Below are positions 49,030 to 54,226 of a stretch of DNA of 54,226 nucleotides, piece by piece (within the stretch, counting starts at the first letter, position 1; each line of letters starts with the position of its first letter). The stretch is from contig BQJD01000025.1 of the NCBI GenBank assembly GCA_021604525.1, positions 1 to 54,226 of the forward strand, in the 5' to 3' direction. The notes beneath the pieces are model-generated. The model saw nothing but the letters and a program-made list of their open reading frames with translations. It had not been told where the DNA came from and ran no database searches. This DNA comes from a marine bacterium B5-7 (GTDB taxonomy: Bacteria; Pseudomonadota; Gammaproteobacteria; Arenicellales; CAJQKF01). The position numbers and the translations under genes are program-made.

Positions 49030-51699
49030 TTATACCGTTCGCGGGTTGGGCTTTTTGGGATCGACGCCGTATAGCTTGATGGCGTCTTTCACCTTGCTCA
49101 CAGCAATCAGATCTTCGTCAGCCAGGGACTTTAACGCTGCAACGGCGACGTAATGACGATCTACTTCGAAGAACCGCCTGAGTTCGGCACGCGTGTCGCT
49201 CCGTCCAAATCCGTCGGTGCCAAGAACGGTATAGCGTTGCGGGATGAACTGTCGAATTTGATCGGCGTGGGCACATATATAATCCGTAGCCGCGACAACC
49301 GGCGCATTGTCACCGGACAAACACTGAGTAACATAGGGTTGTCGCTGTTTACCGCCGGGATGAAGAAGGTTGTAGCGTTCGTTATCACGACCTTCACGGG
49401 CCAGTTCATTGAAGCTGGTTACGCTCCAGACATCGCTGTCAATATCGAAATCATCCTTAAGCAGTTTTGCGGCAGCCAGGACTTCGTTAAGAATGGTGCC
49501 TGAGCCGAGCATATGCACCAGCAGCCTCTTACTGCGACGCCGTGACTTGCTCAGGCGATGCATGCCTTTCAGTATGCCTTCCTCGGCACCATCGGGCATT
49601 GCTGGATGCACGTAGTTCTCGTTCATGCAGGTGATGTAGTAATAAACATTTTCCTGTTCCTTGTACATGCGTCGCATACCGTCTTGAATAATCACTGCCA
49701 GCTCGTAAGCATAAGCGGGATCGTAGGCGATGCAGTTGGGAATGGTGGCGGCGAGTACATGACTGTGACCGTCCTGATGCTGCAGACCTTCGCCGTTTAA
49801 GGTGGTTCGACCAGCGGTGCCGCCGATCAGGAAGCCGCGCGCCTGTATGTCTCCGGACGCCCAGGCCAGATCACCAACCCGTTGAAAGCCGAACATGGAA
49901 TAGAAAATAAAAAATGGCACCATCGGCAGATTATGATTACTGTAAGACGTCGCTGCGGCCATCCACGACGACATCGCACCGGCCTCATTGATCCCTTCCT
50001 GTAGCACCTGACCTTTTTTGTCTTCCCGGTAGAACATCAGGTGATCGTGATCTTCCGGCTCGTACAGTTGCCCTTTGGGAGAATAGATACCCAATTGCCG
50101 GAACATGCCTTCCATGCCGAAGGTGCGCGATTCATCCGGTACGATAGGCACGACCCGGCTGCCGATGTTTTTATCCCGTATCAGCGTGGTGAGAATTCGC
50201 ACGAATGCCATGGTGGTGGAAATTTCCCGCTCACCTGTTCCTTCAAGCTGCGATTTAAATGCAGTGAGTTCAGGCACCTTCAGCGATTCGGATTCAGTCA
50301 GGCGCGTTGGCAGGTAGCCGCCCAGTTCCTTGCGTCGTGCCTTCATGTAAACCATTTCCGGACTGTCTTCAGGAGGCCGGTAGTAGGGCGCGTCGACGAC
50401 CTCTTCGTCATTAAGCGGAATGTTGAAGCGATCGCGAAATGCCAGCAAGGAATCTTCCGCCATTTTCTTTTGTTGGTGGGTGATATTCTGACCTTCGCCG
50501 GATTCACCCATGCCATAGCCCTTCACGGTTTTGGCGAGAATGACGGTTGGTTGACCGGTATGAGCGATAGCCGCTGCATAAGCGGCAAAGACCTTGTGCG
50601 GATCGTGACCGCCGCGATTGAGTCGCCAGATATCCTCGTCTGTCATGTTCGAGACCATGGCTTTGAGTTCTGGATATTTACCGAAAAAGAAATCGCGGGT
50701 GTAGGCGCCACCGTGGGCTTTGAATGCCTGGTATTCGCCGTCGACCGCCTCCTCCATGCGCTTTTTCAGCAGGCCCTGGGTGTCGCGCATCAACAGGGGA
50801 TCCCAGTACGAGCCCCAGATGACCTTGATGACGTTCCAGCCTGCGCCGCGAAATTCGCCTTCGAGTTCCTGGATAATCTTGCCATTGCCACGCACCGGAC
50901 CGTCGAGACGTTGCAAATTGCAATTGACCACGAAGATCAGATTGTCGAGCTGTTCGCGGCCGGCCAAGGAAATAGCGCCCATGGACTCCGGCTCGTCCAT
51001 TTCGCCATCGCCCATGAATGCCCATACCTTGCGATTGGCTGTGTCGAGCATTTCGCGATGATGCAGGTACTTCATGAAACGCGCCTGATAAATCGCCTGG
51101 AGTGGACCAAGACCCATGCTGACCGTCGGGAATTGCCAGAATTTCGGCATGAGCCAGGGGTGGGGATACGACGACAAGCCCGGTTGTTCTACCTCCTGGC
51201 GAAAGCCTTCCATCTGCTCTTCGCTGATGCGTCCTTCAAGGTAAGCGCGGGCGTAAATACCCGGCGCGGAGTGACCCTGAAAGAAAATCATGTCGCCGCC
51301 GTGATTTTTATCCGGCGCATGCCAGAAATGATTGAATCCGACGTCGTATAACGTTGCCGAGGAGGCAAAACTCGCAATATGACCGCCTAGTTCGGATTTC
51401 ATGCGGTTGGCGCGAACCACCATGGCCAAGGCATTCCAGCGGATCAATGATCGAATCTGCCATTCGAGTGCCGGATCGCCGGGACTGCGTTTTTCAAGCG
51501 CCGCCGGAATGGTGTTCAGATAGGCGGTGGTGGCGCGATAGGGAATATGTGTGCCGGAGCGGCGTGCCTGTTCGATCAGATGTTCGATCAGGAAGTGGGC
51601 GCGTTCGGGACCTTCGCGCTCCAGTACGGCTTCAAGTGCCTCACTCCATTCCCGGGTCTCGAGCGGGTCGACATCGTTGTTATTGCGCGGCTCGTTCAT
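49030..51699 (-). CDS. aceE: Pyruvate dehydrogenase E1 component, homodimeric type
   Basis: An 889-aa E1 of the homodimeric gammaproteobacterial type that decarboxylates pyruvate with thiamine diphosphate and acetylates lipoyl E2. The ThDP-binding motif GDGEMDEPESMGAISLAG lies near residue 230, and DKNHGGDMIFFQGHSAPGIYARA and EGEFRGAGWNVIKVIWGSYWD are typical. The ATG at 51699 has GGAGATATT upstream; a longer frame starting 39 bp before is not conserved. It is the first gene of the aceE-aceF-lpd operon, with 16 bp to aceF. Confidence 0.95.
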   Translation of the reverse strand: MNEPRNNNDVDPLETREWSEALEAVLEREGPERAHFLIEHLIEQARRSGTHIPYRATTAYLNTIPAALEKRSPGDPALEWQIRSLIRWNALAMVVRANRMKSELGGHIASFASSATLYDVGFNHFWHAPDKNHGGDMIFFQGHSAPGIYARAYLEGRISEEQMEGFRQEVEQPGLSSYPHPWLMPKFWQFPTVSMGLGPLQAIYQARFMKYLHHREMLDTANRKVWAFMGDGEMDEPESMGAISLAGREQLDNLIFVVNCNLQRLDGPVRGNGKIIQELEGEFRGAGWNVIKVIWGSYWDPLLMRDTQGLLKKRMEEAVDGEYQAFKAHGGAYTRDFFFGKYPELKAMVSNMTDEDIWRLNRGGHDPHKVFAAYAAAIAHTGQPTVILAKTVKGYGMGESGEGQNITHQQKKMAEDSLLAFRDRFNIPLNDEEVVDAPYYRPPEDSPEMVYMKARRKELGGYLPTRLTESESLKVPELTAFKSQLEGTGEREISTTMAFVRILTTLIRDKNIGSRVVPIVPDESRTFGMEGMFRQLGIYSPKGQLYEPEDHDHLMFYREDKKGQVLQEGINEAGAMSSWMAAATSYSNHNLPMVPFFIFYSMFGFQRVGDLAWASGDIQARGFLIGGTAGRTTLNGEGLQHQDGHSHVLAATIPNCIAYDPAYAYELAVIIQDGMRRMYKEQENVYYYITCMNENYVHPAMPDGAEEGILKGMHRLSKSRRRSKRLLVHMLGSGTILNEVLAAAKLLKDDFDIDSDVWSVTSFNELAREGRDNERYNLLHPGGKQRQPYVTQCLSGDNAPVVAATDYICAHADQIRQFIPQRYTVLGTDGFGRSDTRAELRRFFEVDRHYVAVAALKSLADEDLIAVSKVKDAIKLYGVDPKKPNPRTV

Positions 51700-51792
51700 G
51701 TGCGAATATCTCCTGAATCTCGCTTTTGAATCCGCCACGGAACATGCTTGGCGGACTTTGGTTTTCGCCGCTAATGTGACACTATACGGCGC

Positions 51793-51973: not shown

Positions 51974-53689
51974 ATGAGCCAACTGCTTGCACCCCATGGA
52001 GGCACACTGGTTTCACGATTGGTGGATGACGAGCGTGCTGAAGCGCTGCGGCAAATTTCGCTCGAACTGCCGTCGTGGACACTTAACAGACGCCAACTAT
52101 GTGACCTTGAATGTCTGCTGAATGGGGCATTCTCACCGTTGAGGGGATATCACGATCGTAGTGCATACGAGTCGGTTCTGGATAATGCACGTCTACCCGG
52201 GGGCGAAGCATGGCCACTCCCGGTGGTGCTGGATGTCGATGCGGCGTTTGCCGAGAAAATCGAGATTGGTGCGATAGTGGCGTTGCGCGATGCTGAAGGC
52301 TTCATGCTGGCGGTGTTGACGGTCAACGACAAGTGGGAAGCCGACAAAGAACGTGAGGCAGAGGCTGTCTATGGCACCATCGATGGTGCGCATCCGGGGG
52401 TTGATCTGTTGCGTCGTGAGATCAATACGATTTATCTCGGTGGCTCGATCGAAGGTGTTCAACTACCCGGTCACTATGAATTCGGCAGCCTGTGGTTTTC
52501 TCCGGCAGAAATTCGTGCCCAATTCGAGCGCAGCGGCTGGAATCGTGTTCTGGCGTTTGAAACCTCACGCCCCATACACCGTGTACATCGCGATATTATC
52601 GTCAAGGCGGCGCGTGAACATGGCCTGCATATCCTGCTGCATCCGGTAGTCGGCGTCAGCAAGCCGGGTGATTTGCATGAACACGGCCGGATTCATTGCT
52701 ACCAAGCCGTGCTGAAACGATTCCCTGCGCACATGACGCAGCTTGCTTTATTACCACTGGCGATGCGCATGGCCGGTCCCCGCGAATCCCTGCTACATGG
52801 ATTAGTGCATCAAAATTTTGGCTGTAGCCACTTCCTGGTCGGGCCTGACGATGGTTCACCACCGGATGTTGAGCGTGGCGCGCGATTTTACGGCGAGTAT
52901 GAAGCGCAGGAGTATCTGGATCGTTGGCGAGATGAACTCGATATCGAACCGGTATTCGTCGAACGACATCGTTATCATCGCCAGCAACAGGCGTTCCTGT
53001 CGGCATCGCAGTCTAAAGATAATGGTGAAGAGGTGAGCGAAGGAGAGCTTCGTTCACGCATGATGCGCGGCGAGGAAATCCCCGAATGGGTCAGTTTCCC
53101 GGAAGTGCTCGAGTCATTGTCACGAGTTTATCCTGAACGTAATCGTCAGGGATTTACGCTATTTTTCACCGGCCTTTCCGGATCCGGCAAGTCCACCCTG
53201 GCACGAATCATATATGCCAAACTGGTAGAAGATGGTCGGCGTCCGGTGACCCTGCTGGACGGGGATATCGTCCGTCAGAACCTTTCCAGTGAGCTCGGCT
53301 TCTCACGCGCCCATCGCGATCTCAATATTCGTCGCATCGGTTACGTGGCCAATGAAATTACACGTAATGGCGGGGTGGCGATTTGTGCGCCTATCGCGCC
53401 TTATCGTGATACCCGTCGCGCCATACGCGGATTGATCGAGGAGAACGGTGCATTCATAGAAATTCATGTGTCGACACCGCTCGAGGTATGTGAGCAACGT
53501 GATCGCAAAGGTTTATACGCCAAAGCACGCAAAGGCATTATTCCTGAGTTCACCGGTGTAAGCGATCCTTACCACGTTCCCGAACATGCTGAACTGGTCA
53601 TCGATACCAGTGACATCTCACCAATGGAAGCAGTTCAGCAGGTATTGTTGTTTCTGTTGCAGGAAGGTTACATCGACTATCGAGACTAA
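51974..53689 (+). CDS. ATP sulfurylase-like / APS kinase fusion with altered sulfurylase motifs
   Basis: A 571-aa fusion. Residues 1-385 have the ATP sulfurylase fold, including the PUA-like N-domain (LECLLNGAFSPLRGYHDR) and a domain-III-like tail. The nucleotide/sulfate motif QxRNPxHRAH reads ETSRPIHRVH (196-205), and GRDHAG reads GPDDGS (290-295), so residues that bind ATP and sulfate are changed. Residues 390-571 are a canonical APS kinase: GLSGSGKST at 400-408, LDGDIVRQNL, FSRAHRDLNIRRIG, APYRDTRR and KGLYAKARKG. In sulfate activation the first half would make APS and the second PAPS. The ATG at 51974 follows GGGAGCTTAAGTAAC. Confidence 0.84.
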   Translation: MSQLLAPHGGTLVSRLVDDERAEALRQISLELPSWTLNRRQLCDLECLLNGAFSPLRGYHDRSAYESVLDNARLPGGEAWPLPVVLDVDAAFAEKIEIGAIVALRDAEGFMLAVLTVNDKWEADKEREAEAVYGTIDGAHPGVDLLRREINTIYLGGSIEGVQLPGHYEFGSLWFSPAEIRAQFERSGWNRVLAFETSRPIHRVHRDIIVKAAREHGLHILLHPVVGVSKPGDLHEHGRIHCYQAVLKRFPAHMTQLALLPLAMRMAGPRESLLHGLVHQNFGCSHFLVGPDDGSPPDVERGARFYGEYEAQEYLDRWRDELDIEPVFVERHRYHRQQQAFLSASQSKDNGEEVSEGELRSRMMRGEEIPEWVSFPEVLESLSRVYPERNRQGFTLFFTGLSGSGKSTLARIIYAKLVEDGRRPVTLLDGDIVRQNLSSELGFSRAHRDLNIRRIGYVANEITRNGGVAICAPIAPYRDTRRAIRGLIEENGAFIEIHVSTPLEVCEQRDRKGLYAKARKGIIPEFTGVSDPYHVPEHAELVIDTSDISPMEAVQQVLLFLLQEGYIDYRD

Positions 53690-53735: not shown

Positions 53736-54226
53736 CTAAATATCGAAGATTGATGCGTTGACATTCAACTGAGTACTTCCATTACCGTCGACACCTTCAT
53801 TGATGAGATCAACATCGAGTTCTACTCGGAATGATCGCCCATCACATGGACCACTCGATCGGGTGGCGATGAGACTGTAGATCCTTGACTCCTGGTTATT
53901 GATGGGGTTGTCTCCGGTTATCCCATCGAAGTCGCTGATAATCCAGTTAACACCGCCGAGAGATTGGGTATCCCAGTCGCCAATCCCGTTCCCATACGGG
54001 CCGTCGACCTCCATGACAATGAGTGAGTCAGGTTTTGGACCGACTGAATCATCGAAGTCAAACACAGTCATGCTGCAGGAGACACAATCGAAAGTCAGTT
54101 CAATGGCATCCATCAGGTTACCGTCAGGTTGGGGCGCTGGTTCCAAATCGATCGCGCTCGCCGAGCCACAGTTAAACGATGGGCCTGATGGGCCCGTAGT
54201 CAGGGCGTGAGCTGGCAGGGCTACGG
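53736..54226 (-). CDS. Secreted protein of unknown function (partial, N-terminus outside the window)
   Basis: A minus-strand frame is open from 53736 to the window edge without an upstream stop. The far part reads VALPAHA then LTTGPSGPSFN, which looks like the end of a Sec signal peptide with cleavage after AHA, so the true start lies beyond 54226. The about 150-residue mature part is acidic and rich in Asn, Gly and Ser (VFDFDDSVG, DGPYGNGIGDW, ISDFDGITGDNP), with four Cys including one CVSC motif. I do not recognise it. It ends at TAA 53736-53738, convergent with the sulfurylase fusion. Confidence 0.7.
   Translation of the reverse strand, partial: VALPAHALTTGPSGPSFNCGSASAIDLEPAPQPDGNLMDAIELTFDCVSCSMTVFDFDDSVGPKPDSLIVMEVDGPYGNGIGDWDTQSLGGVNWIISDFDGITGDNPINNQESRIYSLIATRSSGPCDGRSFRVELDVDLINEGVDGNGSTQLNVNASIFDI

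Follow-up and report, generated by a model that had tools for sequence, protein, structure and literature searches.

The window, that is, the whole stretch of 54,226 nucleotides analysed here (contig BQJD01000025.1 of the marine bacterium B5-7, assembly GCA_021604525.1), carries near its right end a fusion gene of ATP sulfurylase and APS kinase (Table 1). The order of PUA-like, sulfurylase and kinase domains in its product is that of the NF004040 family (bifunctional sulfate adenylyltransferase/adenylylsulfate kinase), and the protein scored 762.6 bits against the cut-off of 669 for this model and 343.7 against 322.95 for the sopT model TIGR00339, while all three Pfam domains were far above cut-off. 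The divergent neighbour, which by its sequence we take to encode pyruvate dehydrogenase E1, is one of three divergent neighbours that also flank the fusion gene of L003, a close relative described below. A 436-aa ORF antisense to this neighbour (50041-51351, plus strand) is probably a mechanical shadow ORF. On the downstream side, a converging ORF (53736-54224, minus strand) is still open at the end of the window, and no Pfam match was obtained for 53739-54146 within it.

Table 1. Positions in the window of the fusion gene, its domains and motifs, and the neighbouring gene
Feature	Position	Strand	Remarks
Sulfurylase-APS kinase fusion gene	51974..53689	+	571 aa, ATG start, uninterrupted ORF; NCBIfam NF004040, 762.6 bits
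PUA-like domain, N-terminal, residues 6-163	51989..52462	+	PF14306 (PUA_2), E 5.1e-46
ATP sulfurylase catalytic and domain III region, residues 173-384, active-site residues gone	52490..53125	+	PF01747, E 6.3e-64
Altered RNP loop/HxxH ETSRPIHRVH (canonical QTRNPMHRAH), residues 196-205	52559..52588	+	
Altered GRD loop GPDDGS (canonical GRDHAG), residues 290-295	52841..52858	+	
Altered third motif SEGELR (canonical fusions SGTELR), residues 355-360, Arg retained	53036..53053	+	
APS kinase domain, residues 392-544, canonical	53147..53605	+	PF01583, E 6.9e-59
Kinase P-loop GLSGSGKS	53171..53194	+	
Divergent neighbour gene, outside the system	49030..51738	-	Same arrangement in L003

In an AlphaFold2 monomer model based on an 18-sequence alignment, the sulfurylase fold is complete (mean pLDDT 89.6). 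The solved chains nearest to the model were ATP sulfurylases, with the Penicillium enzyme 1i2d as the top full-length match (Z 54.7, 566 residues, rmsd 2.5, 43% identity), and 3cr8 was also matched (Z 40.4, 487 residues, rmsd 2.5).

Active-site residues of the two halves

The preliminary description of this DNA had pointed out two altered motifs in the sulfurylase half, and both were confirmed in the translation (Table 1). As it had stated, residues that bind ATP and sulfate are changed: the Gln, Arg and Asn of the RNP loop and the Arg and His of the GRD loop are replaced, the substituted residues being E196, S198, R199, P291 and D293. According to the available part of the report on the Sat of Allochromatium vinosum (PMC3779200), the sulfate of APS is bound by Gln199, Arg201 and the amide of Ala299, the alpha-phosphate is contacted by Thr200, Arg201 and Asn202, the ribose by Gly295, Arg296 and His298, and PPi by Asn202, His205, His208 and Arg365 of SGTxxR; the RNP and GRD loops are described in that part as strictly conserved across metabolic types. 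The equivalent residues of the window protein are Glu, Ser and Gly for sulfate, Thr, Ser and Arg for the alpha-phosphate, Gly, Pro and Asp for the ribose, and Arg, His, His and Arg for PPi. The contacts thus changed are Gln to Glu, Arg to Ser, Asn to Arg, Arg to Pro, His to Asp and Ala to Gly, and 6 of the 12 APS/PPi contacts are retained when Asp237 (Allochromatium numbering) of the GxxKxxD loop is counted. Judged from these replacements, binding of sulfate and phosphate should be lost, with part of the PPi site left. Some binding of phosphate or nucleotide may remain, since the HxxH motif, the Asp of GxxKxxD and the Arg of SGTxxR are all retained.

The APS kinase half is canonical, as had been described, with an intact P-loop and with 64 of the 65 canonical-invariant kinase positions identical. 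It is thus not degenerate, unlike the kinase half of fungal-type ATP sulfurylase with its allosteric pseudo-kinase. The window protein has very probably lost the sulfurylase step and performs only the APS kinase step.

Relatives of the fusion and constraint on its sulfurylase half

A search for relatives covered 369 genomes from the same class; a match at E up to 1e-60 was obtained in 73, and a contig scan with one protein as the query gave five loci. A tree was made of 75 fusion rows with the motif columns removed, including the APS kinase of Thiobacillus denitrificans and four named loci from the contig scan, and omitting L001 and L007; all trees were quick ones with SH-aLRT as the sole branch support. 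All eight scored active-site residues were kept in 41 rows and not in the remaining 34, referred to below as degenerate, of which L042 and L076 were not used beyond the tree, as each has a single changed residue.

The closest relatives found, L003 and L004, are located on other MAG contigs, from MAGs named Gammaproteobacteria; they are 78% identical to the window protein and read QTSRPIHRVH and GPDDGS. Because both carry the motif changes, Q196E excepted, these are real and shared and not the product of chance or reading error. Q196E was found in this genome alone, the Gln being retained in L003 and L004, and Asp293 in place of His is common to these three proteins only among the 75 rows. The three form a group (SH-aLRT 100) nested in a clade of 23 degenerate rows (SH-aLRT 95, and 99 in a kinase-only tree). 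A tree of the fusions had been proposed as a check of whether the altered motifs mark a clade, and ETSR or QTSR together with GPDDGS indeed marks this small one, while TSK/R with GP recurs across the 23-member clade.

The T. denitrificans APS kinase groups with L069, L071 and L072 (SH-aLRT 95), apart from the 23-member clade, and L066, L068 and L077 make up another degenerate group (SH-aLRT 90). In L069, L071 and L072, the GRDHAG loop is shortened or wholly replaced. The number of changes to the degenerate state depended on the tree: without the motif columns, four are needed with all 34 degenerate rows and three without the two one-residue rows; six are needed in the kinase-only tree; and a single change suffices for the counted degenerate rows when the motif columns are kept. 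Several independent losses were considered and not upheld, because a tree with all degenerate rows as one clade was not rejected and even scored higher (AU p 0.748). One genome (G082) contains two different degenerate fusions (L018 and L075) in addition to a canonical stand-alone Sat. Three degenerate fusions, L163 (G264), L014 (G088) and L016 (G317), are split by a frameshift or stop that is either a real break or an assembly error.

Constraint on the sulfurylase half was estimated from pairs of rows binned by the identity of their kinase halves; L005 and L073 are outside the canonical set in the conservation and selection analyses, and the fragment L014 yields no pairs. At 70-80% kinase identity (156 pairs of 22 degenerate rows and 359 pairs of 39 canonical rows), the identity of the catalytic lobe was 53.7% among degenerate versus 72.9% among canonical fusions, whereas that of the PUA domain was 54.1% versus 55.8%; the lobe gap was also seen in the 60-70, 80-90 and 90-100% bins. 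With a gap in the lobe and near equality in the PUA domain, constraint therefore fell mainly where catalysis had demanded it.

The canonical fusions have 111 invariant sulfurylase positions, of which 71 are retained by at least 80% of the 23-member clade and 12 by less than 20%. Arg198, Asn199 and Arg291 are kept in none of the 23 members, the Arg of SGTxxR in 0.22 and the His of the GRD loop in 0.83. The HxxH motif is kept in the window protein, as the preliminary description had noted, with both His present; the second His is found in only 0.43 of the clade. Replaced residues vary among the members (S/T/C/P/A at 198; D/K/H/R/E/Y at 292), and newly conserved sulfurylase positions number six. 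The APS/PPi contacts were kept at a mean of 0.55 in the clade versus 0.72 for other invariant sites, a difference short of significance (permutation p 0.076); in the nine other degenerate rows the values were 0.26 versus 0.61, which looks stronger. Nine dN/dS comparisons were made; no dS was obtained in three of them, and in three others it exceeded 2. In the sole usable pair, L003 versus L004, dN/dS was 0.045 in the lobe, 0.049 in the kinase half and 0.145 in the PUA domain. Since the lobe in this one pair is under purifying selection like that on the kinase, the sulfurylase half is, by this sequence-based measure, maintained and not rotting.

Other sulfurylases and putative sulfur-oxidation genes in the same genomes

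A search of the genome for another sat or cysDN, as had been suggested, detected a stand-alone Sat with the canonical motifs QTRNPMHRAH and GRDHAG (G000, contig C12), and no CysD match was obtained in this genome. The fusion is thus not the only sulfurylase gene of its genome; had it been so, the preliminary description would by its own terms have been refuted.

For comparison across genomes, another sulfurylase was defined as a stand-alone Sat (PF01747 outside the fusion) or a CysD above its cut-off. Counts of Sat/CysD, AprA, PF13469 and CysH cover 64 of the 73 class genomes with a match, to which G574 is added for DsrA; seven class genomes whose match was sulfurylase-only are excluded, and the scoring of the two that carry split fusions (G167 and G264) is limited to motifs and Sat. 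G280, which carries L076, is in neither the degenerate nor the canonical count and has no other Sat or CysD, and G231 was counted as degenerate through L074 and also carries L042. Three canonical genomes (G052, G260 and G367) carry a second canonical fusion, which was not counted as another sulfurylase.

Another sulfurylase was present in 26 of the 27 class genomes with a degenerate fusion (21 Sat, 5 CysD) and in 4 of the 36 with a canonical fusion (one Sat, three CysD); as to the split fusions, that of G264 is degenerate and that of G167 canonical, each accompanied by a Sat. Sampling the phylum more widely (398 genomes, of which 32 gave a match, including some that were already counted; in G563 the match was sulfurylase-only) added one degenerate-fusion genome, G574, with CysD and no second PF01747 match, and 27 canonical-fusion genomes, one of them with CysD; the fusions of G670 and G746 (L162) are canonical. 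When pooled, 28 of 29 degenerate-fusion genomes versus 6 of 64 canonical-fusion genomes have another sulfurylase (Fisher 7.7e-17, ignoring the tree), and by family, counted if any of its genomes has one, the numbers are 17 of 18 versus 6 of 23 (Fisher 1.7e-5, likewise ignoring the tree). A tree-aware test by independent pairs found one pair only and had no power. As a single origin of degenerate fusions is not rejected by the AU test, a small number of events may underlie the association.

The lone degenerate-fusion genome in which no other sulfurylase was found, G317, is a 410-contig assembly, and its fusion, interrupted by a stop, sits on a contig of 3.5 kb. The stand-alone Sats of degenerate-fusion genomes all read QTRNPxHxxH and GRDHAG (22/22). 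Within the stand-alone Sats L166-L185, six read HLAH and many HRSH, canonical fusions reading HRAH.

AprA was above cut-off in 17 of 27 degenerate versus none of 36 canonical class genomes, and DsrA in 18 of 28 (the 27 plus G574) versus 1 of 36. Sat and AprA occur together in 17 class genomes, including that of the window with AprBA on contig C20 and DsrA on contig C14, and DsrA is present in all 17. G088 has DsrA and Sat with AprA not above cut-off, and the remaining degenerate-fusion genomes have Sat or CysD without AprA, apart from G317 with none. Dsr, Apr and Sat thus accompany most of the degenerate fusions, whose hosts are probably sulfur oxidisers, provided that the Dsr and Apr reactions run in the oxidative direction.

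Probable fate of PAPS and role of the sulfurylase half

The one CysH-family protein of the window's genome scored 252 bits for the APS-type model TIGR02055 (cut-off 235) and 141 for the PAPS-type model TIGR02057 (cut-off 254); the cut-offs of the general CysH models NF002537 and TIGR00434 are likewise exceeded, and the protein has CC and CxxC cysteines, which are the mark of APS reductases. As this CysH is of the APS type, cysteine synthesis in this genome should not need PAPS. The reductase gene and, close to it, a presumably sulfite-reductase-like ORF are located at 1883-4696 of L107. In 14 of the 17 genomes with Sat and AprA no CysH-family match was found, so that PAPS is probably not needed for cysteine in these genomes; two others have weak matches only (22-27 bits).

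Sulfation would be a natural sink for PAPS. The window's genome has eight matches to the sulfotransferase family PF13469, four of which, among the matches listed, are on contigs C29 and C7; PF13469 is matched in 14 of the 17 genomes with Sat and AprA and gave no match in the other three. A sulfotransferase gene is the next gene after the fusion in G122 and lies 2.6 kb away in G334. These neighbours are Pfam-checked, because gene calls by longest ORF failed to report six canonical fusions and, in loci of high GC content, chose antisense frames. Near the window gene, downstream of which the window reaches only 0.5 kb, the polysaccharide/sulfotransferase panel gave no match. By this panel, whose queries came mainly from degenerate loci and which is hence biased to them, polysaccharide context was not borne out as a mark of degenerate fusions: at least one polysaccharide gene lay within 8 kb at 16 of 30 degenerate loci (window included) versus 11 of 20 canonical ones, and at least two at 13 of 30 versus 2 of 20, the canonical 20 being part of a larger set. 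The sulfotransferase tally of the panel was not used, its query L078 not being a sulfotransferase by the look of its sequence.

We estimate at roughly three in four the probability that the window protein is a dedicated APS kinase derived from a bifunctional PAPS synthetase, its sulfurylase half being dead and kept as scaffold or activator of the kinase, and its PAPS being used for sulfation. The suggestion, already raised in the preliminary description, that a working APS kinase is joined to a sulfurylase half without catalytic function is supported by the lost contacts and the canonical Sat in the genome. The ancestor would have been a bifunctional PAPS synthetase whose sulfurylase half died. 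APS would be made and used by other enzymes, namely the stand-alone Sat, AprBA and the APS-type reductase, and the kinase half would convert APS from this common pool into PAPS, most likely destined for sulfotransferases, while the sulfurylase half would keep its fold as oligomer scaffold and/or kinase activator. We conjecture that the loss may avoid a second, competing site of APS formation or cleavage where energy metabolism runs via APS; a second sulfurylase site could be redundant or short-circuit the APS pool.

Among known systems, the bifunctional Sat-CysC PAPS synthetases (NF004040; Aquifex aeolicus 2gks) share the architecture and family model of the window protein, and canonical fusions of this kind are the nearest relatives outside the degenerate rows. 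QTRNPxHRxH and GRDHA are intact in them, and neither a stand-alone Sat nor a CysD was found beside them in 58 of the 64 sampled genomes. Fungal ATP sulfurylase, such as that of Penicillium (1i2d), is also a fusion with one dead half, but there the dead half is the kinase, which senses PAPS. The comparison of the window protein to a fungal sulfurylase in reverse is therefore a fair analogy, though not a new one, having been published for T. denitrificans and Entamoeba histolytica.

The two-domain APS kinase of T. denitrificans (PDB 3cr8; Gay, Segel and Fisher 2009) is reported to be without sulfurylase activity, and its dead half is said to stabilise a hexamer. The window protein is 41-47% identical to its 493-residue chains, has the same domain order with a presumably inactive sulfurylase-like half, and combines, as in this type, a degenerate sulfurylase half with a canonical kinase half. 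Both proteins lose the RNP-loop Asn and the GRD Arg, but T. denitrificans has losses of its own (QARQPMHRAQ and GGEHQP) and, unlike the window protein, keeps the RNP-loop Arg and loses the second His. The two were placed apart in the quick tree that lacks the motif columns, and one clade of all degenerate rows, which would unite them, was not rejected (AU p 0.748).

A non-catalytic sulfurylase-like half on an APS kinase is also described for E. histolytica (PDB 23vk) in the available part of PMC13213808, where this half is only 14-23% identical to the solved homologues compared and, unlike that of the window protein, is without the substrate loop and has a shorter linker. Its deletion lowers kcat about 100-fold and two contact mutations lower it 21- to 60-fold, an effect exerted by domain contact, the sulfurylase pocket being narrowed. 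According to the same source, kcat/KM is largely unchanged by mutations of the dead half and the deletion may act via instability, so that the role of activator is not firm even in this organism.

It is possible, although rather unlikely, that the sulfurylase half is an allosteric sensor that binds a nucleotide, APS or PPi by way of the retained HxxH, GxxKxxD and adenosine-site residues and gates the kinase, as the mirror of fungal ATP sulfurylase. The window protein retains the two His of HxxH, Asp233, Arg360 and the greater part of the MRMAGPRE segment, and 71 of the 111 invariant positions are retained in at least 80% of the clade; the lobe is under strong purifying selection in one pair, and E. 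histolytica shows the falls in kcat given above (PMC13213808). On the other hand, neither the second His of HxxH nor the Arg of SGTxxR is kept clade-wide, no new conserved pocket motif was found in the clade, and the E. histolytica pocket is narrowed, devoid of the substrate loop and effective through domain contact. A further reading, in which sulfur oxidisers whose energy flux goes via APS have disarmed this half and use it to sense APS, PPi or adenylates, so that PAPS supply and with it surface sulfation are held back by the state of sulfur oxidation, is unlikely.

A still working, perhaps slow, ATP sulfurylase is very improbable: HxxH and most of the fold are kept and the curated cut-offs of NF004040 and TIGR00339 are exceeded, but the sulfate-binding Gln and Arg, the phosphate-binding Asn and the GRD Arg are lost, T. 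denitrificans with the same Asn and GRD Arg lost is reported as inactive, and a canonical Sat is already in the genome. That the half catalyses a new reaction with a different nucleotide or oxyanion, as the preliminary description had suggested, is hardly credible in spite of the complete fold of the AlphaFold2 model, nearest to solved ATP sulfurylases, and the recurrent TSK/R with GP in the clade, because constraint on the lobe is relaxed below that of canonical relatives with only six newly conserved positions, and the replaced residues at 198 and 292 vary inside the clade.

An APS kinase with a dead sulfurylase half is of a kind known since 2009 for one bacterium and seldom noticed, and the probable dedicated kinases of the window clade constitute a new subgroup. 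In the open-access literature, no paper was found on the spread of such proteins or on their link with Sat, AprA and DsrA. As the window protein passes the bifunctional model, such genes will be annotated as a second sulfurylase, very probably wrongly, and by NF004040 and TIGR00339 calls they may be miscounted as sulfurylases in genome surveys. In the degenerate fusions, dead enzyme halves that have canonical sisters and are tied to Sat, AprA and DsrA form a natural set with which one can test for what reason and by which route a fused enzyme gives up one of its two activities, and to what end the dead half persists. Should PAPS serve sulfation alone in these organisms, the fusion also points to sulfated surface polymers in sulfur-oxidising bacteria.
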